Shown in pieces: positions 28,924 to 39,769 of a stretch of 64,000 bases of DNA. The DNA comes from Leisingera daeponensis DSM 23529 (GTDB taxonomy: Bacteria > Pseudomonadota > Alphaproteobacteria > Rhodobacterales > Rhodobacteraceae): assembly GCF_000473145.1 (NCBI RefSeq), contig NZ_KI421500.1:62225-126224 (forward strand), given 5' to 3'. Each line of letters opens with the position of its first letter. Position 1 is the stretch's first letter. The notes under the pieces were generated by a model. The model worked only from the letters and a program-made list of their open reading frames with translations. It did no database searches and was not told the origin of the DNA. The position numbers and the translations under genes were made by a program.

Positions 28924-31900
28924 ATGTGCGCCGACACGCCCCAGACGCCTGACTACAAAGACACTCTCAATCTGCCAAAAACCGATTTCCCGATGCGCGC
29001 CGGCCTGCCCAAGCGCGAGCCTGCCTGGCTGGACCGCTGGGCTGAGATCGGCGTCTACGAAAAACTCCGCGAGAAGGCCGCCGCGGCCAAGGGCACGGAT
29101 GCAGAGCGCAAGCCCTTCACCCTGCATGACGGCCCGCCCTACGCCAACGGCCACCTGCACATCGGCCACGCGCTGAACAAGACCATCAAGGACATGATCG
29201 TGCGCTCGCACCAGATGATGGGCTTTGACGCGCGCTATGTGCCGGGCTGGGACTGCCACGGCCTGCCGATCGAATGGAAGATCGAGGAGCAGTACCGCAA
29301 AAAGGGCAAGAACAAGGACGCGGTGCCGGTGGTCGAATTCCGCCAGGAATGCCGCGCCTTTGCCGACAGCTGGGTCGAAATCCAGCGCGAGGAGTTCAAG
29401 CGGCTGGGCATCACCGGCAACTGGGACGATCCCTATCTGACCATGAACTACCACGCCGAGGCGGTCATCGCAGACGAGTTCATGAAGTTCCTGATGAACG
29501 GCACGCTCTATCAAGGCTCCAAGCCGGTGATGTGGTCGCCGGTCGAGAAAACCGCCCTGGCCGAGGCCGAGGTGGAGTATCACGACAAGGAAAGCTTCAC
29601 CATCTGGGTGAAGTTCAAGGTGGCCGAGGCCGGCGGTTTCGTGGCTGCTGATGGCGAGGATGCCGATTATGCCGGCGCCGACTCGGCGATCGTGGCGCAG
29701 GATCTGGAAGGCGCCCATGTGGTGATCTGGACCACCACGCCCTGGACCATCCCGTCGAACAAGGCGGTGGTGTACGGCGCTGACATTGCCTATGGCCTCT
29801 ATGAGGTGACCGGCGCGCCGGAAGAATGCTGGGCCGCTGCCGGCGACCGGTTCCTGCTGGCTGACAACCTGGCCGCGGATGTATTCAAACGCGCCCGGCT
29901 GGGCGAAGGCCAGTACAAGCGCCTGCGCGGCGTCTCGGCTGAGGAACTCTCCAGCCTGTCGCTGAAGCATCCCCTCGCCGGCGCCGAAGGCTCGAACGGC
30001 GAATGGGACGCCATCCGCGATTTCCGCGCCGCCAGCTTCGTGACCGACACCGAAGGCACCGGCTTCGTCCACTGTGCGCCCTCGCACGGGATGGAGGAAT
30101 TCGAGCTTTACCGCGATCTCGGCATGCTGGAGCAGGTGATCACCTACAACGTGATGGACGACGGCTCCTTCCGCGCCGATCTGCCGTTCTTTGGCGGCAC
30201 CTACATCCTCAACCGCAAGGGCGGCGAGGGCGATGCCAACAAGGCCGTCATCGACAAGCTGGTTGAGGCCGGCGGCCTGCTGGCGCGCGGCAAGATCAAG
30301 CACAGCTACCCGCATTCCTGGCGCTCCAAGGCGCCGATCATCTACCGCAACACGCCGCAGTGGTTCGCCTCTGTCGACCGCAAGCTGGATGACGGCATGG
30401 GCGAGATGGGTGACAGCATCCGCGAACGCGCCCTGCGCTCGATCGACGAACTGGTGAAGTGGTGGCCGCAAACGGGGCGCAACCGCCTGTTCTCGATGAT
30501 CGAAAGCCGCCCCGACTGGGTGCTGAGCCGCCAGCGCGCCTGGGGCGTGCCGCTCACCTGCTTTACCAGGAAAGGCGCGCTGCCGACCGATGCGGATTTC
30601 CTGCTGCGCAATGAAGATGTGAACAAACGCATCGTCGCGGAGTTCGAGGAGCACGGCGCCGACGTCTGGTACGAGGACGGCTTCAAGGCGCGGGTGCTCG
30701 GCAACAGCGTGGATCCGGACGATTACGACCAGGTTTTCGACGTGCTGGACGTGTGGTTCGACTCCGGCTCGACCCATGCCTTTGTGCTGCGCGACCGCGA
30801 GGACGGCACCGAGGACGGCATCGCCGACGTCTACATGGAAGGCACCGACCAGCACCGCGGCTGGTTCCACTCCTCGCTGCTGCAAGCCTGCGGCACCAAG
30901 GGCCGCGCGCCTTACCGCAACGTGGTGACCCACGGCTTCACGCTGGACGAGAAGGGCATGAAGATGTCCAAGTCGCTCGGCAACACCATCGTGCCCGATG
31001 AAGTGGTCAAGCAATACGGCGCCGACATCCTGCGCCTGTGGGTGGCCCAGACCGACTATACCGCCGACCAGCGGATCGGGCCGGAGATCCTGAAGGGCAC
31101 CGCCGACAGCTACCGCCGCCTGCGCAATACCATGCGGTTCATGCTGGGGTCGCTGGGCGACTTCCGCGAAGAGCAGCGGGTGGCGCCGGAGGATATGCCG
31201 GAGCTGGAACGCTGGGTGCTGCACCGGCTGGCGGAACTCGACCAGAAGGTGCGCAGCGGCTACCAGTCGTTTGACTTCCAGGGTGTGTTCTCGTCGGTCT
31301 TCAACTTTGCCACCGTGGATCTGTCAGCCTTCTACTTCGACATCCGCAAGGATGCGCTCTACTGCGACGGCGACACGCTGAACGCCCGCGCCGCGCGCAC
31401 CGTTCTGGATATCCTGTTCCACCGCCTGACCACCTGGCTGGCGCCGATCCTCGTCTTCACCATGGAAGAGGTCTGGCTGGAGAAATATCCGGGCGAAGGC
31501 AGCTCTGTTCACCTGCAGGACATCCCGGAAACCCCGGCCGGCTGGCTGAACCCGGCGCTGGCCGAAAAATGGGCCAAGATCCGCCAGGCCCGCCGGGTGG
31601 TGACAGCGGCGCTGGAGGTGCAGCGCACCGACAAGGTGATCGGCGCCTCGCTGGAGGCCGCGCCGGTGGTGCATGTGCGCGACAAGGAGGCGCTGGCGGC
31701 GCTGAAATCGGTCAACTTTGCCGATATCTGCATCACGTCGGATATCATGCTGACAAATGACCCGGCCCCGGCCGAAGCTTTCCGGATGCCGGAGGTGGAT
31801 GGCGTCTCGGTGGTGTTTGAGAAGGCCGATGGCGATAAGTGCCAGCGCTGCTGGAAGATCCTGCCGGATGTGGGCCGCCACAGCCACGCGGGCGTCTGCG

Positions 31901-31926
31901 GCCGCTGCGACAGCGCGCTGAGCTGA
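28924..31926 (+). CDS. ileS: Isoleucyl-tRNA synthetase
   Basis: A 1000-residue class I synthetase charging tRNA-Ile with isoleucine in the cytoplasm. HIGH is at residues 79-82 ([11 protein letters not shown]), KMSKS at 680-684 ([11 protein letters not shown]), with the editing (CP1) domain between, containing TTPWTIPSN, and a C-terminal zinc finger (CQRCW ... CGRC) in the last 30 residues. Length and finger indicate the bacterial IleS1 type. ATG 28924 has AAAGGA eight bases upstream; the frame opens eight codons earlier. A strong terminator follows directly, so it is monocistronic. Confidence 0.98.
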
Positions 31927-31952
31927 CCCACGGCTCACCCCCTAATTGAGTG

Positions 31953-31988
31953 CAGCGCCCGGCCCGATGGCCGGGCGCTGTCGTTTTT
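31953..31988 (+). terminator. Rho-independent terminator of ileS
   Basis: A perfect 12-bp stem (CAGCGCCCGGCC at 31953-31964 with GGCCGGGCGCTG at 31969-31980), loop CGAT, then TCGTTTTT. It begins 26 bases after the ileS stop. Confidence 0.92.
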
Positions 31989-32086
31989 GCGATGTTATTA
32001 CGCAACTCCCCGCACTTTTTCCGGGTGCTGCCTTGTGTCCCGCTGTTTTGGATTCCTCTAGATGTTGACCGGTTTTCCACAACTGG

Positions 32087-32102
32087 TTAAGAATTCGTTA
32101 AT
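32087..32102 (+). promoter_or_regulatory. CtrA-like box upstream of the 271-aa orphan
   Basis: TTAA-GAATTCG-TTAAT matches the CtrA consensus TTAA-N7-TTAAC at all but the last base. It ends 63 bp before the start of the downstream gene. The match is seen; binding is inferred. Confidence 0.5.
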
Positions 32103-32164
32103 TCCATGAAGATTTTCAGCCATTCATTCAAGAACATGGCATGGGGCAGGGGGGGCAGTTTTCT

Positions 32165-32980
32165 ATGCTGAAGCTGAAAGCGGACGCGCAACCGGCGGAC
32201 GAGCTTGGCGCGCCGCGCAAGATGGCAGTCCGGATTGACGGGATCTCTGCGCCGAAGAACATGAAAATCGGGCTGGTGGCTGGCGGCGCGGGCCCGATGG
32301 CCAGCAGCCTCACAGGCCCGGTCAAGACGCCCGAACCCGCAGCCGCAAACGCTGCGGCGGCGGCGCAGATGCCTGCGCCCGCTACCCGGCAGGCGCCTGC
32401 CCGAACCCGAAAAGCTTTGAAGGCGGCAAAAGCCATCAAGGCGGCCTTTGCCGCCCGGACCGCCCGCGCGGCACAGCGGCCCCTTGCAGTTTCTGAAACC
32501 GGAAGCGCCCTGCCGCAACTGAGCCTGGCCGCTGCCGGGCTGGCGGTGGCCTCTGCCATGCTGCTGTATTTCCAGTTCGGCGGCGGCACCACGCCTGCGG
32601 ACACTGATCAGGCCGGTTTGGCGCCGGCGGCGGTTCTTCCCGCCGGGGCGGCTTCGGCTGCAGGCCTGGCCGAGGGCGCGGGCAGCGGCGAGGACGCATT
32701 GGTTGCCCGCATCACTGCCGGCACGCTGGCCGCGCTGCGCAGCAAGCAGGCAGAGCCCGGCCCTGCGGCGCCGGCCGCCGCCCCCGCGGCACCGGCCAAA
32801 GGCACCGCGCTGTTCAAAATGGTGATGACCGCCGCCGCCCAGGGACAGTCGGAGGCCTACATCGACCAGTTGGTGAACGGCGCCTATGCGCGCCGGGAAA
32901 TCACCGTGCCCGCCAGCCTGATTGACGCCAGCGGGCGGGTCGACACCGCCACGCTGCTGGCGCTGTTCGTCGGCAAATGA
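32165..32980 (+). CDS. Orphan protein with one transmembrane segment
   Basis: A 271-residue protein with an Ala/Pro/Lys-rich N-terminal half, one transmembrane helix at about residues 121-140 (LSLAAAGLAVASAMLLYFQF), an Ala/Pro linker, and a compact C-terminal region (FKMVMTAAAQGQSEAYIDQL, then a helical tail). The basic N-side suggests the C-terminal part is periplasmic. ATG 32165 lies about ten bases after a G-run; the in-frame ATG at 32141 adds eight residues. I recognise no family. A CtrA-like box lies upstream, and the two LysM fusion genes follow 150 bp later on the same strand. Confidence 0.7.
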   Translation: MLKLKADAQPADELGAPRKMAVRIDGISAPKNMKIGLVAGGAGPMASSLTGPVKTPEPAAANAAAAAQMPAPATRQAPARTRKALKAAKAIKAAFAARTARAAQRPLAVSETGSALPQLSLAAAGLAVASAMLLYFQFGGGTTPADTDQAGLAPAAVLPAGAASAAGLAEGAGSGEDALVARITAGTLAALRSKQAEPGPAAPAAAPAAPAKGTALFKMVMTAAAQGQSEAYIDQLVNGAYARREITVPASLIDASGRVDTATLLALFVGK

Positions 32981-33129
32981 CCTTCGCTCCGGCGGCTGCG
33001 CCGGAGCTGCCCCCGGGATGCCCGCACAGGCTTTGGTGCTGTTAGACCGGCGGCTTTCATAACAAAAACAACACAGACCCGCGCCGCAGGCCGAAAACGG
33101 CCGCGGTGCACAAGACTTCCGGGGGGACC

Positions 33130-34209
33130 ATGAAGAGCTTTTTCGCTGCCGCAGCCATGGGGCTGTTTGCGCTTGCCGCCAATTCCGCAACCGCAGAGAC
33201 CTGCGGCGGGGTGTACACCGTGCAGTCCGGCGACAGCCTGTCGGTGATTGCCGACAAGATGTACAAGGACGCGGGCAAGTGGAGCGCCATCCACAACCGC
33301 AACATCGACCAGATCGGCCCCAAGCCGAACGCGATCCGGGCCGGCATGAAACTGTCGCTGGCCTGCCTTGAAGGGCTGCCGCTGGGGCTGCCGGGCGGCA
33401 AGGAAATCGCCGCCGCCGTTCCCGCCGCTGCGGTGCCGGTCAAGGTGGCGCCGGGCAATGCCGCGGTGCGCAAGAAAATCAACCTGCTGACCGGCGACGA
33501 CTATGCCCCCTTCACCTCCAAGGCTTCGCACAATGGCGGGCTGATCACCGAGGTGGTGAACGCCGCCATGGCCAAGGCGGCGCCGGCCGAAGGTTACGCG
33601 ATCCACTGGGTGAACGACTGGTCCTCGCATTTCGACCCGCTGCTGTCCAACGCGCTCCTGGACCTGGGCTTCCCCTGGTACAAGCCCGACTGCGAAACCA
33701 TGCCGGACAGCTACCGCTGCCAGAACTTCCACTTCTCGGAACCGATGTTCGAAACCCTGATGCTGCTGTTTGCCGACAGCAGCCGGCCCTTCGCCTTTGA
33801 GCAGGACAGCGACATCGAAGGCAAAACCCTGTGCCGTCCCGCGGGCTATCTGACCTTTGATCTGGATGAGCGCGGCCGCAACTGGATTGCAGAGAAGAAG
33901 ATCACCCTGAAGCAGCCGCACAAGGTGAAGGACTGTTTCGACATGGTGGCCGCGGGCGAGGCCGATGCGGTGGCAATCAACGAATTCACCGGCCGCAGCG
34001 TGATGAAGGAGCACGGGCTGGAGGGCCGCTTCACCATTCTGCCGCAGCCCTTGTCGGTGCTGGGCATCTATGTGGTGGTTCACAAGACCCATCCGCGCGC
34101 GGATCAGATGCTGTCGATGGTCAACACCGGCCTGCGCAGCATCCAGGAGGACGGCAGCTATCAGGCGATCGTCGAGGACCACATGGCCCGGATCTGGGCC
34201 GGTTTCTGA
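33130..34209 (+). CDS. LysM domain fused to a family-3 solute-binding domain, copy 1
   Basis: A 359-residue exported protein: signal peptide about 1-22, LysM domain about 28-77 (YTVQSGDSLSVIADKMY to MKLSLAC), a Pro/Ala/Val linker, then a periplasmic-binding-protein (SBP_bac_3) fold about 112-355 starting INLLTGDDYAPFT. LysM binds peptidoglycan; SBP3 binds amino-acid-like ligands. No permease or ATPase is nearby, so it is unlikely to be a normal ABC transporter receptor; it may anchor a ligand sensor to the wall. Cysteines bracket the LysM domain, and further pairs occur in the SBP part. GGGGGG lies just before ATG 33130. Its paralogue follows after 13 bp. Confidence 0.85.
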   Translation: MKSFFAAAAMGLFALAANSATAETCGGVYTVQSGDSLSVIADKMYKDAGKWSAIHNRNIDQIGPKPNAIRAGMKLSLACLEGLPLGLPGGKEIAAAVPAAAVPVKVAPGNAAVRKKINLLTGDDYAPFTSKASHNGGLITEVVNAAMAKAAPAEGYAIHWVNDWSSHFDPLLSNALLDLGFPWYKPDCETMPDSYRCQNFHFSEPMFETLMLLFADSSRPFAFEQDSDIEGKTLCRPAGYLTFDLDERGRNWIAEKKITLKQPHKVKDCFDMVAAGEADAVAINEFTGRSVMKEHGLEGRFTILPQPLSVLGIYVVVHKTHPRADQMLSMVNTGLRSIQEDGSYQAIVEDHMARIWAGF

Positions 34210-34222
34210 GGAGGAGGGCATC

Positions 34223-35245
34223 ATGAAAAGGCTGTTCTCCCGCCTTCTTCAGCTGGCCGCAGTGTTCAGCTTGGCGCCGGCCGCCGCCTGGGCGATCTGC
34301 GATGTCGATTATGTGGCGCAGCCCGGCGACACGCTGTTCTCCATAGCCGAGACCCACTATGGCGACCGCGAGCGCTGGACGCTGGTCTATTACCGCAACC
34401 AGAAACTGCTGGCGGGCGCGACCGTGCTGCCGGGCCGCAAGCTGTTCATCCCCTGCATCACCGGCGCCACCGCGCCTGATGCCACACCGCTGCGCCAGGA
34501 AAAGGCAGAGCTGACGCTGCTGACCGGCGGCGGCTATGCGCCGTTCACCGGCCGCGGCCTGCCGGGGCAGGGGATGGTGACCGAACTGGTCAACGCCGCG
34601 CTGGAGCTGGCGCCCGCGCCGGTCAGCTATTCGGTCAGCTGGGAGGATGACTGGTCCAAGCATCTGTTCCCGATGCTGGACCAGAAGGAATTCGATATGG
34701 GCTTCCCCTGGCTCAAGCCCGACTGTGCGGCTGAGCCGGACAATGAGCGCTGCGCCAGCTTCCATTTCTCGGACCCGGTGATGACCTTGCCGATCATGCT
34801 GTTTGCCCGCGCCGACAGCGGCTTTGACTACCGCGAGGACGCCGACGTCGAAGGCAAGACCCTGTGCCGTCCGGCCGGCTATTTCACCCATGACTTGAAC
34901 CGTCCCGGGCGCCGCTGGCTGGACGGCGGCAAAATCACTCTGGTGCAGCCGAAGACCCCCGCCGATTGCTTCCGCATGGTGGCAGAGGGCAAGGTGGATG
35001 CGGCTGCGGTCAACCTGTTCCTGGGCGCCAGCACCATCGTCGGGGAAGGGCTGCGCGACACCGTCGTGCCCCTGGAAAAGCCGCTGTCGGAAGAAGGTCT
35101 GCACGTCGTGATTTCCAAGCGCCACTGGCGCGGCACCACCCATCTTTACCGGATCAATGCGGGCCTGCAGAAGCTGCGCGGCAGCGGCCGGTTCGAAGAG
35201 ATCATGTCGCGCCACCTGGAGCTGTTCTGGGCGCAGCTCCAATAA
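34223..35245 (+). CDS. LysM domain fused to a family-3 solute-binding domain, copy 2
   Basis: A 340-residue paralogue of the gene 13 bp upstream, with the same order: signal peptide about 1-24 (ends AAAWA), LysM about 28-77 (YVAQPGDTLFSIAETHYGD to KLFIPC), short linker, SBP3-like domain from LTLLTGGGYAPFT. GAGGAGG lies before ATG 34223. Matched features include DWSKH/DWSSH, GFPWLKPDC/GFPWYKPDC, the Cys in NERC/SYRC, EGKTLCRPAGY and the C-terminal VDAAAVN/ADAVAIN, so all major cysteines are kept. Divergence elsewhere suggests the two bind different ligands or form a heterodimer. Function not known. Confidence 0.85.
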   Translation: MKRLFSRLLQLAAVFSLAPAAAWAICDVDYVAQPGDTLFSIAETHYGDRERWTLVYYRNQKLLAGATVLPGRKLFIPCITGATAPDATPLRQEKAELTLLTGGGYAPFTGRGLPGQGMVTELVNAALELAPAPVSYSVSWEDDWSKHLFPMLDQKEFDMGFPWLKPDCAAEPDNERCASFHFSDPVMTLPIMLFARADSGFDYREDADVEGKTLCRPAGYFTHDLNRPGRRWLDGGKITLVQPKTPADCFRMVAEGKVDAAAVNLFLGASTIVGEGLRDTVVPLEKPLSEEGLHVVISKRHWRGTTHLYRINAGLQKLRGSGRFEEIMSRHLELFWAQLQ

Positions 35246-35257
35246 AGGGCGGCGGCG

Positions 35258-35614
35258 TCAGGCGGACAGGGTTTTGGCCGCCTTGTAGCCGTTGCAGGCC
35301 GCGGCGCATTCGGCCTCGCTGCCCGGATCCTGGTGTTCGGCGCGCTGCAGCAGAAGGTGCTCCGCCAGGACCGGGTTTTCCTGCGGCAGGCCGGACGCCG
35401 GTCCGGTGCCCTGCCGGGCGGCGGCGGCCGGGCGGCTGCGGCGGTCATCGCGGCCGGGCGGGTCCTGCGGATGGCCGTGCGGTTCCTGCTCCCGCGGGCT
35501 GGTGTTTGCGGATTCGCTGCGGTCCGGGTCATCTGAGCGCACAACCGGACGGGCGGTCAGATGGCCGCGGTTCGGTTTGACAGGATCTACCCTTCCTGAA
35601 ACTGGCAAAAACAT
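35258..35614 (-). CDS. Small orphan protein, charged
   Basis: A 118-residue, strongly polar protein rich in Arg, Asp, Pro and Glu over its middle, with a helical C-terminal part (AEHLLLQRAEHQDPGS, then AECAAACNGYKAAKTL). No signal peptide or membrane segment. AAGGA lies eight bases before ATG 35614, and two CtrA-like boxes lie 35 and 60 bp upstream, which support a real gene despite low-complexity composition. I recognise no family. It converges on the second LysM gene with a 12-bp gap. Confidence 0.6.
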   Translation of the reverse strand: MFLPVSGRVDPVKPNRGHLTARPVVRSDDPDRSESANTSPREQEPHGHPQDPPGRDDRRSRPAAAARQGTGPASGLPQENPVLAEHLLLQRAEHQDPGSEAECAAACNGYKAAKTLSA

Positions 35615-35648
35615 AGAGCGGGTCCTTCGCGTTGGCTGTGAACCGGTC

Positions 35649-35664
35649 TTAAGCGAAGGTTAAT
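35649..35664 (-). promoter_or_regulatory. CtrA-like box, proximal
   Basis: TTAA-GCGAAGG-TTAAT (as read on +) lies 35 bp upstream of the 118-residue orphan. One mismatch to TTAA-N7-TTAAC. It would overlap a -35 region, the usual place for CtrA-activated promoters. Confidence 0.5.
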
Positions 35665-35673
35665 GCAAAGCGC

Positions 35674-35689
35674 TTAACAGCAGGTTAAC
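35674..35689 (-). promoter_or_regulatory. CtrA box, full consensus, distal
   Basis: TTAA-CAGCAGG-TTAAC is a perfect match to the CtrA consensus. It starts 25 bp beyond the proximal box and 60 bp upstream of the 118-residue orphan, giving a tandem arrangement. Confidence 0.6.
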
Positions 35690-35762
35690 GCGGTTCCGCA
35701 GGGCGGAGCGGCCGGGCGGGCGGTCCGCAAACGGGCCTGCAAAATCGGCCTGAATACCGGCC

Positions 35763-36152
35763 TTAAGAGCCGGTGATAAGCCGGGCCTTGACATAGCTGG
35801 CTTCCGCCTGAAGCGCACTGACCGGTTTGGGGCCGGCCTGGCAGCCATTCATCAGGTCCTGGTAAAACGCCGCCATGCCGATGTCGTTCACCTGCTTCAG
35901 GTTCAGCGTATCGGTGCGCGCGGCGGCACGGGCCGGGCCGATATACTGCGGGGTCAGCGCTTCCGGGCGGGCGGCGCTCAGCGCCTGCTGCCGCTGCAGG
36001 CTGCGGCCGATGCCCCGGGTGGTGCCGTCGATCAGCGGCGCATCCACCGGCTGGCCGCCTGCCTCCGCGATCACGGGCTGTTTGCTGCGCGCAGCCTGCA
36101 TCTGCTTCAGGCCGTGATAGAGACTGGCGGTGCCGGAAACTGCAGACAGCAT
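35763..36152 (-). CDS. Small orphan protein, helical
   Basis: A 129-residue protein without signal peptide or membrane segment. Features visible are an N-terminal LYHGLKQMQAARSK helix, a basic RGIGRSLQRQQAL stretch and a C-terminal VNDIGMAAFYQDLMNG segment with the only cysteine. ATG 36152 has GAAGGG seven bases upstream; the longer frame to 36227 is not supported. A perfect CtrA box lies 79 bp upstream. Family unknown. Confidence 0.65.
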   Translation of the reverse strand: MLSAVSGTASLYHGLKQMQAARSKQPVIAEAGGQPVDAPLIDGTTRGIGRSLQRQQALSAARPEALTPQYIGPARAAARTDTLNLKQVNDIGMAAFYQDLMNGCQAGPKPVSALQAEASYVKARLITGS

Positions 36153-36230
36153 TTGATTACCCTTCGCTTCGTTCTTGAGACTCACTTTATGATAATTTGA
36201 TGTAATTGGGTGAGGAACTGTTAGCATTGG

Positions 36231-36246
36231 TTAACGCGGCCTTAAC
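36231..36246. promoter_or_regulatory. CtrA box, full consensus, between divergent genes
   Basis: TTAA-CGCGGCC-TTAAC matches the CtrA consensus exactly. It lies 79 bp upstream of the 129-residue orphan and 88 bp upstream of ogt, so it could serve either or both. Confidence 0.6.
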
Positions 36247-36334
36247 CGCGCTTGCGGCAACCGGGCACAGGCCGCCTTGCCAGCAGGGATATTCCGGGGG
36301 ATGATGGCGCCTGTGGCAGCGCCGGGGAGGCAGG

Positions 36335-36787
36335 ATGATTTCAGCCAGCCTTGAAACACCTGTCGGCGCGCTCAGCGTGACAGAACGGGACGGTGCCCTT
36401 GTGCGGCTGGCCTGGTCTGCGGCGGCAACGGGGCGGTCGGCCTTGCTGGACCGGGCAGTAGCGCAGCTGCGCGCCTATTTCGCCGGGGAGCTGACAGAAT
36501 TCGATCTCCCGCTGCATGTGGACGGCTCTCAGTTCCAAAAGGCAGTTTGCGAGGCGATGCGGGCGATCCCTTTCGGCGAAACCCGCACCTACGGGGAAAT
36601 TGCCAGGGATCTCGGCGCCCCTCCGCAGCCGGTGGGCAATGCCTGCGGCGGCAATCCGATCCCTGTGATCATCCCCTGCCACCGCGTGCTCAGCGCCACG
36701 GGGCTGGGCGGTTTTTCCGGGCAGGGCGGGGTGGAAACCAAGGTTGCCCTGCTGAAACACGAAGGCGCCGCAGGCCTGCTGATCTGA
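36335..36787 (+). CDS. ogt: Methylated-DNA-[protein]-cysteine S-methyltransferase
   Basis: A 150-residue suicide repair protein that removes alkyl groups from O6 of guanine onto its own cysteine. The active-site motif is IIPCHRV with Cys115, preceded by the helix-turn-helix part (FGETRTYGEIARDLG) and the NACGGNPIP segment in place of the usual N-x-NP. The N-terminal domain is short, as in Ogt-type proteins without the Ada domain. GGGGAGG lies before ATG 36335. It is divergent from a small orphan gene and shares a CtrA-like box with it. Confidence 0.95.
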   Translation: MISASLETPVGALSVTERDGALVRLAWSAAATGRSALLDRAVAQLRAYFAGELTEFDLPLHVDGSQFQKAVCEAMRAIPFGETRTYGEIARDLGAPPQPVGNACGGNPIPVIIPCHRVLSATGLGGFSGQGGVETKVALLKHEGAAGLLI

Positions 36788-36913
36788 CCCTGCAGGCCGG
36801 CCGCTGTGTCCCGCGGGGCTTCATTTGCGCTGAACGGGAACCGGTTGTCCGCCCCCTCAGGGCGCAGCGCCGCCGCGGGAGCAAACCGCGCCGCGGGGCG
36901 GCACGGCATGGGG

Positions 36914-37282
36914 TCAGGCAAACAGGGCCTTCACCTGGTCATAAAGCGGTGCAGTGCTGGTTCCGGAGGTTTCGGTAAAATCGCTGATCAGCGCCAGGAT
37001 CACCGATTCCATATCAGCTTCGGACGGAGCCTCAGGGGCGGGTGCTGCGGCGGCTTCTGCGGCGCTGTCGGGGCTGTCTGCCGGGGCTGCGCCGCCGGTC
37101 TCTGCCGTGCCGGAGGTGCCGCCTGCCGGCGGCTGTGCGGCCTCGGCAGCGTCTGCCTGCTTGGCGCGCCAGCCCCAGGCCTTGGCATGGTCGGGCGGCC
37201 CCGGCTGTTTGCTGCCGGTCACAGCGTTCAAGGCGTTGCTCAGCCCGCTTGGGGCGAGGGCAGGGGCGGATACGGAATGCAT
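36914..37282 (-). CDS. Small orphan protein, acidic Ala/Pro-rich
   Basis: A 122-residue protein: a short N-terminal helix region, an Ala/Gly/Pro/Glu-rich, probably disordered middle (about residues 45-90), and an amphipathic C-terminal helix (ADMESVILALISDF, then YDQVKALFA). AGGAG lies seven bases before ATG 37282. A near-consensus CtrA box lies 62 bp upstream. No family recognised. Confidence 0.65.
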   Translation of the reverse strand: MHSVSAPALAPSGLSNALNAVTGSKQPGPPDHAKAWGWRAKQADAAEAAQPPAGGTSGTAETGGAAPADSPDSAAEAAAAPAPEAPSEADMESVILALISDFTETSGTSTAPLYDQVKALFA

Positions 37283-37343
37283 GGCGGTCTCCTGTAATCG
37301 CTGCCGCGAGGGCAAAGTCCCGGTCAGTGTCCGCAGTTGCCCG

Positions 37344-37359
37344 TTAAATTCGGCTTACC
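37344..37359 (-). promoter_or_regulatory. CtrA-like box upstream of the acidic orphan
   Basis: TTAA-ATTCGGC-TTACC differs by one base from the consensus TTAA-N7-TTAAC and starts 62 bp upstream of the ATG at 37282. The spacing agrees with the other boxes of the region. Confidence 0.45.
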
Positions 37360-37430
37360 GGCGCGGCCGCTTTCTAAGGCAAAACCCATTCAAACTTTCG
37401 CCGGTTTGCCAAAGCCCTAGGGTGCATAGG

Positions 37431-37458
37431 AAAAAGCGCTGCCGGCCAAGGGCAGCGC
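37431..37458 (-). terminator. Rho-independent terminator of pcs
   Basis: On the minus strand GCGCTGCC pairs with GGCAGCGC around a seven-base loop and is followed by TTTTT. It begins 19 bases after the pcs stop. Confidence 0.85.
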
Positions 37459-37476
37459 CTGCAGCCTGCCGCAGGA

Positions 37477-38187
37477 TCAGGGATGCGAAGGCGCGCGGCG
37501 GCGTTCGGGAATGATCTGCTGGGCGATGCCGACAAACAGCAGGTAGACCGAGGTGACCACCAGCCCCCAATGGGCCCAGCTGGCCGGGTGGAAATCGACC
37601 CAGGCGGCCCAGCCGGCAAAGAACGTCCAGGCCAGCGCCATCGGCAGCGAGACCTTGCGCCAGCGGGCCGTGCGCACCGGATGGATGAATTTCAGCGGCA
37701 GGAACATGGCAATGGACAGCAGCGTCACCAGCACCAGGCTGGTCCAATGGCTGGGCTCCAGCGCAAAGATCACCAGCACCAGCATATTCCAGCAGCCGGG
37801 AAACCCGGAGAAGGAATTGTCCTTGGTCTTCATTCGTGTGTCGGCGAAATACATCGCGCTGCCGAAGGTGATCACGATGATCGCGAACCAGCCGGTCCAG
37901 CCTGCCATCAGCCCCGATTGGAACAGCGCAAAGGCGGGGATGAACACGTAGGTCAGATAGTCGATGATCAGGTCCAGCAGCACCCCGTCAAACTCAGGCG
38001 AATAGCGCTTGACGTGGTAATGCCGCGCCAGCGGGCCGTCGATCCCGTCCACCGCGAAGGCGACCACGAGCCAGACGAACATCAGGCTCCACTTGCCCTC
38101 CGCCGCCGCCAGCATCGACAGCATGGCGAAGACGGCGCCGGTTGCGGTGAGCAGGTGAACGGAGAGGGCGCGGATCTGTGGTGTCAT
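37477..38187 (-). CDS. pcs: Phosphatidylcholine synthase
   Basis: A 236-residue CDP-alcohol phosphatidyltransferase with about eight membrane helices. The metal/CDP-binding signature is visible as DGIDGPLAR, then G and D residues in FDGVLLDLIIDY (pattern D-G-x2-A-R-x8-G-x3-D-x3-D with the family's spacing). Pcs makes phosphatidylcholine directly from CDP-diacylglycerol and choline in the inner membrane, typical of Rhizobiales and Rhodobacterales. The length fits Pcs. It is followed by its own terminator. Confidence 0.93.
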   Translation of the reverse strand: MTPQIRALSVHLLTATGAVFAMLSMLAAAEGKWSLMFVWLVVAFAVDGIDGPLARHYHVKRYSPEFDGVLLDLIIDYLTYVFIPAFALFQSGLMAGWTGWFAIIVITFGSAMYFADTRMKTKDNSFSGFPGCWNMLVLVIFALEPSHWTSLVLVTLLSIAMFLPLKFIHPVRTARWRKVSLPMALAWTFFAGWAAWVDFHPASWAHWGLVVTSVYLLFVGIAQQIIPERRRAPSHP

Positions 38188-38226
38188 GGGTCCCTGATGG
38201 CGAATTTGCCCCGGTCCCGCAACCGT

Positions 38227-38439
38227 TCAGTGCAGGTTTGGGCGGAATTCCGTGCCTGCGGCAAACTGGATGCGGGCCATGCGGCGGCCCAAGGGGGCGG
38301 GGACGGTGATATGAGGGGAGGTAAACGGCGCCCTTGAGGGCATATCCCCCATCCGTTCCCACGGCTGGCCGCCGGGCGGCGGGGCAGGGGCAGCAGGGGC
38401 GCCATCGGCATAAAGGGCGGCAGAACCGGGAATGGTCAT
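38227..38439 (-). CDS. Very small orphan protein, Pro-rich
   Basis: A 70-residue protein rich in proline and alanine (ADGAPAAPAPPPGGQP) ending RIQFAAGTEFRPNLH. AAGGA lies seven bases before ATG 38439, which is the main support. A degenerate CtrA-like site lies 48 bp upstream. It ends 39 bp before the pcs start on the same strand and could be co-transcribed. Real-gene status is moderately sure; function unknown. Confidence 0.5.
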   Translation of the reverse strand: MTIPGSAALYADGAPAAPAPPPGGQPWERMGDMPSRAPFTSPHITVPAPLGRRMARIQFAAGTEFRPNLH

Positions 38440-38486
38440 AGCGGAATCCTTTCTGGATCGGTTTCCGCCATAAAGCCGCAGCGGCC

Positions 38487-38502
38487 TTAACAGCCGCTTG
38501 CC
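38487..38502 (-). promoter_or_regulatory. Degenerate CtrA-like half box
   Basis: TTAA-CAGCCGC-TTGCC keeps one full half-site and three of five bases of the other, 48 bp upstream of the 70-residue orphan. Weak on its own; listed because of the pattern in the region. Confidence 0.3.
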
Positions 38503-38570
38503 GCGTCCTGCAAAAATAGCACGCATTTTAGCTAATCCGGCGCAGGCCAGCCGATCCGGCACAGGCGGGC

Positions 38571-38798
38571 TCAGCCGCAGCAGCCGCGTCCTGTTTGCAC
38601 CGGCGGGCAGGGCACGGTGCCGTAAGAACAGAACACACAGCAGTCGCCGGGACGGGGCCGCAGCAGGATGCGGCAGCCCGGGCATTCGTGGAACCATTGG
38701 CAGGCGTCCTGCGGCATCCTTACCGTGGCCTGATGGCCGCAGGACGGGCAGGTGAGCGTGCTGGTCAGGACGGGATCTTCAGGCTGTGAGCCGGGCAT
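38571..38798 (-). CDS. Cys-rich small metal-binding protein (GDCCVFCSYG type)
   Basis: A 75-residue protein with an N-terminal zinc-ribbon-like half (CPSCGH ... CQWFHECPGC) and the highly conserved motif GDCCVFCSYGTVPCPP, then a Cys-Cys tail. About eleven cysteines in 75 residues point to metal or iron-sulfur binding. I recall this motif from small proteins often annotated near metal-handling genes, but no function is established. No metal transporter is adjacent here. Confidence 0.75.
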   Translation of the reverse strand: MPGSQPEDPVLTSTLTCPSCGHQATVRMPQDACQWFHECPGCRILLRPRPGDCCVFCSYGTVPCPPVQTGRGCCG

Positions 38799-38848
38799 GG
38801 GCAGGCCTCCCTGCCTCCAGCAGAGGGCGGAAACCGCGCCGGGTCAAG

Positions 38849-39769
38849 TCACGCCTTGGGGTGGGCGCGCATGTAGACATCCATCAGATGGGTGGTGTCC
38901 ACCGCCGTATAGGCCTGGGTGGTCGACAGCGACGCATGGCCCAGGAGCTCTTGAATGGCGCGCAGGTCGCCGCCTGCCTCCAGCAGGTGGGTGGCGAAGC
39001 TGTGGCGCAGCGCATGCGGGGTCGCGGTGGCGGGCAGCCCCAGCTGGGCGCGGGTCTTGGCCATCACCCCCTGGATCTGGCGCGGGTTCAGCGCGCCGCC
39101 GCGCACGCCGCGGAACAAGGGCGCCGCGCGTTCCTGCGGGTGCGGGCACAGCTCCAGATAGCGGTCGACCGCTGCGCGGGCGGCGGGCAGCACCGGCACC
39201 ACGCGCTCCTTGCGGCCCTTGCCGAGAATGCGCAGCACCTGCGGCAGCGGCGCGTCTGCGCCCTTCAGCCCCAGAGCCTCCGAAATCCGCAGGCCGCAGC
39301 CATAGAGCAGCGTGACCACCGCCACGTCGCGGGCAGCCACCCAGTCCGTTTCCGATTGCAGCTCCACCGCCTCCAGCACCGCCTTGGCGGCTTCCGGCGC
39401 CAGCGGGCGCGGCAGCTTCTTCTGAAACTTGGGCGCGCGCGCCAGCAGCACTGCGGCGGGCTCAAACCCCTCGCGCTTGGCCAGCCAGCGGTAGAAGGTC
39501 TTGACCGCCGACAGCTTGCGCGCCAGCGATCTCGCGCCGGTGCCGGAGTTGCGCTCCGACGCCATCCACGCCCGCATGTCGGCGGTGGTGATCCGCGCCA
39601 GCGCGCCCAGACCCTGCGGGCCGCCAAAGTGCTGCGTCATGAAGGCCAGGAAGGCGGTCACATCCCCGCGGTAGGCCGCCAGCGTGTTGGCCGAGGCATC
39701 CTCCAGCCCGCCCAGCCGCTCCAGCCAGAGCTGCAGCGCATCGCGGCAGGCCGGGGAAATCAGCGTCAC
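38849..39769 (-). CDS. xerC: Tyrosine recombinase XerC
   Basis: A 306-residue site-specific recombinase. N-terminal SAM-like core-binding domain about 1-110, catalytic domain after. Catalytic residues are visible: Arg161 (CGLRISEA), Lys in GKGRKER, His252 and Arg255 (HALRHSFATH), His278 (LGHASLSTTQ) and nucleophile Tyr287. It resolves chromosome dimers at dif with XerD. GTG 39769 overlaps the stop of the DUF484 gene (GTGA), the same coupling of DUF484 and xerC known from other proteobacteria, which supports XerC rather than a phage integrase. Confidence 0.95.
   Translation of the reverse strand: MTLISPACRDALQLWLERLGGLEDASANTLAAYRGDVTAFLAFMTQHFGGPQGLGALARITTADMRAWMASERNSGTGARSLARKLSAVKTFYRWLAKREGFEPAAVLLARAPKFQKKLPRPLAPEAAKAVLEAVELQSETDWVAARDVAVVTLLYGCGLRISEALGLKGADAPLPQVLRILGKGRKERVVPVLPAARAAVDRYLELCPHPQERAAPLFRGVRGGALNPRQIQGVMAKTRAQLGLPATATPHALRHSFATHLLEAGGDLRAIQELLGHASLSTTQAYTAVDTTHLMDVYMRAHPKA

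Follow-up and report, generated by a model that had tools for sequence, protein, structure and literature searches.

Within a stretch of 64,000 nucleotides of Leisingera daeponensis (hereafter the window, whose positions serve as coordinates throughout), the pattern TTAA-N7-TTAA occurs exactly at 32087, 35649, 35674 and 36231 and, by pattern scan, nowhere else. An earlier note on this DNA had read these boxes as sites of the regulator CtrA, which raises the question of whether CtrA controls the small genes behind them and, if so, in which direction. The best explanation, and in our judgement a highly probable one, is that the boxes are CtrA sites controlling three genes, of which orfA would be repressed, orfB activated and orfC probably activated. 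As such, these genes are very probably unrecognised members of the CtrA regulon. The boxes and genes are given below, with counts that refer to the window and 20 other Leisingera genomes.

32087..32101, no strand assigned: CtrA-type box of orfA, TTAAGAATTCGTTAA; exact in 21/21 genomes, overlapping a putative -10 element
32165..32980, plus strand: orfA, 271 amino acids, with a hydrophobic helix and a C-terminal domain; in 20/20 relatives
35258..35614, minus strand: orfB, 118 amino acids, no family; in 16/20 relatives
35649..35663, no strand assigned: proximal CtrA-type box of orfB; exact in 10/17 genomes, one mismatch in 4/17, more in 3/17
35674..35688, no strand assigned: distal CtrA-type box of orfB; exact in 14/17 genomes, one mismatch in 3/17
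35763..36152, minus strand: orfC, 129 amino acids, no family; in Leisingera, with weaker homologues in two other genera
36231..36245, no strand assigned: CtrA-type box of orfC; exact in 20/21 genomes, one mismatch in 1/21

Clustering and conservation of the boxes

The four exact boxes claimed in the earlier note were all recovered, lie between genes as it stated, and compare with a mean of 0.05 (maximum 1) in 100 dinucleotide shuffles of the window. Its count of two full TTAAC ends proved too low, as three boxes carry them free of mismatches, namely those at 32087 (minus strand), 35674 (plus strand) and 36231 (both strands). The whole genome (4,642,596 bp) holds 26 exact boxes, four of them in the window. 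Presupposing uniform placement of sites, a Monte Carlo simulation gave P = 5.5e-5 for any four of the 26 falling within 4,159 bp, and P = 0.004 when tandem sites were merged (three of 23 groups). Four boxes within 4.2 kb are an unusual cluster.

Conservation of the boxes in relatives, which the earlier note had proposed as a check, was examined in the syntenic loci of the 20 other Leisingera genomes (one genome per species, 206,107 bp in all). Every one of the 61 exact boxes in these loci falls at one of the same three promoters, 30-110 bp upstream of the start of orfA (20 boxes), orfB (22) or orfC (19); none was found elsewhere in the 206,107 bp. Control patterns in the same DNA were met seven times (N6 spacing), not at all (N8 spacing) and 14 times (the reversed pattern AATT-N7-AATT). 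With the window included, an exact box precedes orfA in all 21 genomes and orfC in 20, the remaining genome (L047) having one mismatch, and 16 of the 17 genomes in which orfB was detected have at least one exact box before it, often two, while L048 has one-mismatch boxes only.

Conservation was also followed base by base, as the mean majority identity of half-sites, spacer and flanks. This amounts to 0.99, 0.72 and 0.71 for the orfC box, with 14 distinct spacers in 20, to 0.98, 0.82 and 0.68 for the distal orfB box, and to 0.93, 0.52 and 0.79 for the proximal one. For the orfA box the values are 1.00, 0.91 and 0.92. The half-sites and their seven-base spacing thus appear to be under selection at all three genes, although orfA provides a weaker test, because conservation of its spacer and flanks comes close to that of its half-sites.

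These patterns bear on the possibility that the TTAA pairs arose by chance in AT-rich intergenic DNA, or that they are sites of another OmpR-type regulator. Some weight is lent to it by the genome-wide counts: the motif is modestly enriched, because the 26 exact boxes stand against 21 occurrences of the reversed pattern and nine with N8 spacing, and a share of the 26 may be due to chance. It is nevertheless very unlikely, given the restriction of the relatives' boxes to the same three promoters with none of the N8 type, the half-sites that stay while spacers vary at orfB and orfC, and the recurrence of the motif before motB and a divL-like gene described below.

Clustered boxes of this kind might also belong to a chromosomal origin, since CtrA boxes at the Caulobacter origin block replication. 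A weak minimum of the cumulative GC skew near 20-32 kb of the window, and a sampled skew that rises from roughly zero or below to positive values close to the cluster, would agree with this. The sampled skew changes sign more than once, however, no TTATNCACA box occurs in the 20 kb enclosing the cluster, dnaA is separated from it by 1.3 Mb or more even on a circular reading of the 3.98-Mb contig, and the boxes keep fixed places before gene starts. We therefore reject an origin as extremely improbable.

The genes around the boxes are ordered ileS, orfA, sbp1, sbp2, orfB (minus strand), orfC (minus), ogt, orfD (minus), pcs (minus), orfE (minus), a small cysteine-rich open reading frame (ORF) and xerD (minus). 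The genes ogt and pcs are named after NCBIfam or Pfam matches, whereas the matches behind the names sbp1 and sbp2 fall below the cut-offs. The xerD product is a tyrosine recombinase according to Pfam; the names ileS and xerD are partly our own assignment. The order ileS, orfA, sbp1, sbp2, orfC, ogt, pcs, orfE recurs in all 20 relatives. Of the 16 orfB copies in relatives, that of L046 is short (84 amino acids).

CtrA as candidate reader of the motif

The genome encodes a CtrA orthologue, with 92% identity over 226 amino acids to a CtrA sequence. The other exact sites of the genome were viewed as 20 loci, two of which were compared across relatives: an exact box precedes motB in 21/21 genomes, and another precedes the gene of a divL-like PAS protein, likewise in 21/21. 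Further exact boxes adjoin a cckA-like PAS-HisKA gene, ftsZ (about 300 bp upstream) and the gene of a PAS_5 protein (the labels cckA-like and divL-like being our own), and the remaining ones precede metabolic genes, genes of no known role or no obvious target. Because the motB and divL-like boxes are kept in every genome and a close CtrA orthologue is encoded, CtrA is the best candidate reader of the motif in this genome. Motif, synteny, conservation, spacing and promoter geometry at the cluster are observed; CtrA binding there and the sign of regulation are inferred.

The combination of a regulator orthologue with TTAA-N7-TTAA, also before motB and the divL-like gene, resembles the CtrA regulon of the Rhodobacterales Phaeobacter inhibens and Dinoroseobacter shibae as presented in the available portions of two studies (PMC12363192, PMC4046655). 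The targets named in these portions comprise flagella, chemotaxis, cyclic di-GMP turnover, quorum sensing, the gene transfer agent and others, whereas orfB and orfC match no known family. A literature search combining CtrA and Leisingera returned, judged by title, nothing on this locus. What is added here would thus be a new set of members to an already known regulon. As CtrA in roseobacters ties together motility, cell division, quorum sensing and gene transfer, it is of interest that footprints kept across 21 species single out orfA, orfB and orfC as likely direct CtrA targets.

Among the other loci, a small Gly/Asn-rich, secreted-looking ORF (L066:1207-1452, minus strand) has its start some 49 bp away from an exact box of the CtrA type and is a possible further target.

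Promoter geometry and the predicted direction of regulation

The most informative part of this set is the promoter of orfA, where the box overlies a putative -10 element, which the earlier note left unmentioned together with the repression that it predicts.

32065..32070, plus strand: putative -35 element of orfA, TTGACC; TTGACC-N17-TAAnAA in 21/21 genomes, and TTGACC also found by a promoter scan
32088..32093, plus strand: putative -10 element of orfA, TAAGAA, inside the box; the scan reads one base further on, AAGAAT, with a gap of 18

A generic sigma-70 scan of positions 31900-38600 yielded three promoter-like sites (0.7 in shuffled sequence), with the TTGACC of orfA among them. Since the putative -10 falls inside the box by either reading, CtrA bound there is predicted to block this sigma-70-type promoter and so to repress orfA. 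The high conservation of spacer and flanks fits such a second role of the box over the -10 element. In another genus (genome G095), an orfA homologue is preceded by an exact box and TTGACG-N17-TAAGAA, its 17-base gap counted by eye. Two further genera (L083 and L086) have TTGACG upstream of an orfA-like ORF and no box, a hint that the promoter arose before the box did.

In Caulobacter, according to the consulted sections of PMC4287350, full CtrA motifs near the -35 element activate and half-motifs over the -10 element repress, while a full CtrA motif at -14 of the ctrA P3 promoter is held to repress. Like the P3 box, that of orfA overlaps the -10 element of a sigma-70-type promoter, though at orfA this element, TAAGAA, is a putative one. 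A live but less probable alternative is that the orfA box activates a promoter further downstream instead of repressing through the -10. Full CtrA motifs mostly activate (PMC4287350, same sections), and CtrA phosphorelay mutants of P. inhibens mainly show a loss of expression in the accessible part of PMC12363192, so that repression of orfA would represent the rarer mode. Activation from a downstream promoter is less easily squared with the invariance of TTGACC-N17-TAAnAA in 21/21 genomes, whereas the centre of the box shifts between 64 and 70 bp ahead of the ATG. If repression of orfA is right, its promoter offers a concrete predicted case of repression by CtrA among bacteria in which loss of CtrA mostly reduces expression (PMC12363192).

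At orfB, the two boxes occupy fixed places in the interval from the 3' end of orfC to the orfB start, centred 42 and 66-68 bp ahead of the ATG. These positions are suited to helping RNA polymerase, and phosphorylated CtrA would activate orfB from them. Box geometry fits activation at orfB. It fits less clearly at orfC, because no -10 element stands out there; there is a single box, centred 86-88 bp before the ATG, which would serve orfC and not the divergent ogt and would probably activate.

The assignment of the 36231 box to orfC needs weighing, for it lies between two divergent genes, 89 bases from the ogt start, and might regulate the DNA repair gene ogt, alone or together with orfC. A precedent could be seen in the DNA-repair gene dprA, which is expressed less in mutants of the CtrA phosphorelay in both P. 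inhibens and D. shibae (PMC12363192). The spacing speaks otherwise: box and orfC are 79-81 bp apart in 20 of 21 genomes and 89 bp apart in L047 (standard deviation 2.0), against 28-107 bp for box and ogt (standard deviation 16.2; 72-107 bp without L047, whose one-mismatch box lies at 28 bp), so that no conserved spacing to ogt is seen across the 21 genomes. A conserved leader sequence was moreover found on the orfC side, the side that the alignment covered. Because its spacing is near-constant to orfC and drifts relative to ogt, the box fits better with orfC, and control of ogt is rejected as unlikely. The 35-80 bp between box and start reported in the earlier note describes orfA (63), orfB (34 and 59), orfC (78), orfD (61) and the orfE half-site (47), while ogt (89) falls slightly outside it.

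Besides the modest genome-wide enrichment, several observations weigh against control of the three genes by CtrA in the proposed directions. Aligned promoters show no -10 element that stands out before orfB or orfC. The proximal orfB box is lost (more than one mismatch) in L041, L042 and L043, and the orfC homologues in two other genera have no exact box, one of them (G213) having two one-mismatch boxes nearby. At orfA, conservation alone cannot separate a CtrA site from a promoter. The Caulobacter repressor class consists of half-motifs, with one example of a full motif over a -10 (PMC4287350, as far as its available text goes), and the genes affected in the P. inhibens mutants mainly go down (PMC12363192, likewise). 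Finally, several exact sites of the genome (e.g. L008, L009, L012 and L060) had no clear target in quick ORF picking.

A broader picture may be sketched tentatively, as a real possibility that we do not count as the probable one: the cluster could be a genus-level cassette within about 4 kb, in which CtrA turns off an old envelope gene, orfA, through a box grown over its sigma-70 -10 element, and turns on orfB and orfC, whose small, lineage-restricted products might act as hitherto undescribed anti-factors or assembly helpers of the motile or predivisional cell.

The encoded proteins and further features of the locus

None of the proteins OrfA to OrfE has a Pfam or NCBIfam match at E 0.1, nor did these databases link any of them to a flagellar or gene transfer agent family. 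OrfA has a hydrophobic helix at about residues 119-138 (our own reading, with low model confidence), and its AlphaFold model is confident solely at about residues 212-268 (block-mean predicted local distance difference test score, pLDDT, 74-90). LysM proteins with a hydrophobic N-terminus from other Rhodobacterales genera have this C-terminal domain at their centre: a profile of OrfA (A2) finds such ORFs in L085 (E 2.4e-17), L087 (5.0e-15) and L089 (7.8e-14). The profile matches 34 of 295 genomes of the family at E 0.001, its own genus included. A C-terminal LysM domain exceeded the Pfam cut-off in 3/3 tested relatives that share the central domain and extend past it, and was not found by Pfam in a fourth tested ORF, which is orfA-like, nor in OrfA itself. 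Unlike the LysM proteins of L085, L087 and L089, OrfA ends at the shared domain and has a conserved N-terminal stretch of its own. A sequence search of the PDB with OrfA returned no match. Our guess is that OrfA works in the envelope and is lowered when motile-state genes are raised.

OrfB and OrfC are nearly confined to the genus. OrfC has 44 homologues among 5.8 billion proteins, the named ones belonging to Leisingera, two unassigned Rhodobacteraceae and one Parasedimentitalea, and it matches 4 of the 295 family genomes, two of them outside the genus and at the same place between ileS and ogt. Among the 20 homologues of OrfB, the named ones come from Leisingera and from one unassigned Rhodobacteraceae. 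For OrfC, AlphaFold gave a poor model (mean pLDDT 53), and the single match of this protein in a PDB sequence search (E 0.099) is taken as chance.

Two further genes were considered as targets.

36914..37282, minus strand: orfD, 122 amino acids, patchy; in the window and 3/20 relatives
37344..37358, no strand assigned: one-mismatch box before orfD; kept in 2/3 relatives having orfD
38227..38439, minus strand: orfE, 70 amino acids; in 20/20 relatives, named homologues from Leisingera
38487..38490, no strand assigned: single TTAA half-site before orfE; GTTAA kept in 21/21 genomes, full box absent

The earlier note had listed these genes and ogt, along with orfA, orfB and orfC, as lying behind boxes, and had suggested that the orphan genes may belong to the CtrA regulon. 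Of all these, orfA, orfB and orfC are the probable members, ogt is not, and the case is weak for orfD, a patchy gene, and for orfE, which has a half-site. The one-mismatch copy at 37344 is real and precedes orfD in three of the four genomes having the gene (4/21, leaving out a tblastn match in L043 that falls inside orfA). What had been described as a weak box at 38487 is a single half-site, and a full TTAA-N7-TTAA precedes orfE in 0/21 genomes; half-sites can function in Caulobacter, as reported in the available sections of PMC4287350. OrfE has 18 homologues and matches 4 of the 295 family genomes, including two weak matches in genomes from beyond the genus.

A predicted hairpin (38438-38471, minus strand; minimum free energy -14.7 kcal/mol, z -2.7) takes in the start codon and ribosome-binding site of orfE. 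Across the 21 genomes its sequence is highly conserved, with one pair altered on both sides in four of them, while the hairpin breaks or weakens in three of six folded sequences. The conserved orfE leader was considered as a shared element and dropped, because a search of the genome allowing up to three mismatches finds it a single time.

An Rfam scan of 31900-39000 gave three matches, all under the gathering scores. The sbp1 and sbp2 genes (33130-35245), present in 20/20 relatives, encode related tandem proteins with a LysM-like stretch and an SBP_bac_3-like domain, all below Pfam cut-offs. Genome G213 has, between orfC and ogt, the gene of an EF-hand protein (L139:8586-9317, minus strand; over the Pfam cut-off), and two one-mismatch boxes are close by. 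Elsewhere in the L. daeponensis genome, four TTAA half-sites at exact 11-base steps form three overlapping exact boxes (L012:1501-1537; G000:C2:1049975-1050011), close to a minus-strand tRNA-Pro gene but with no obvious gene to control; this is the densest exact array among the 26 sites.

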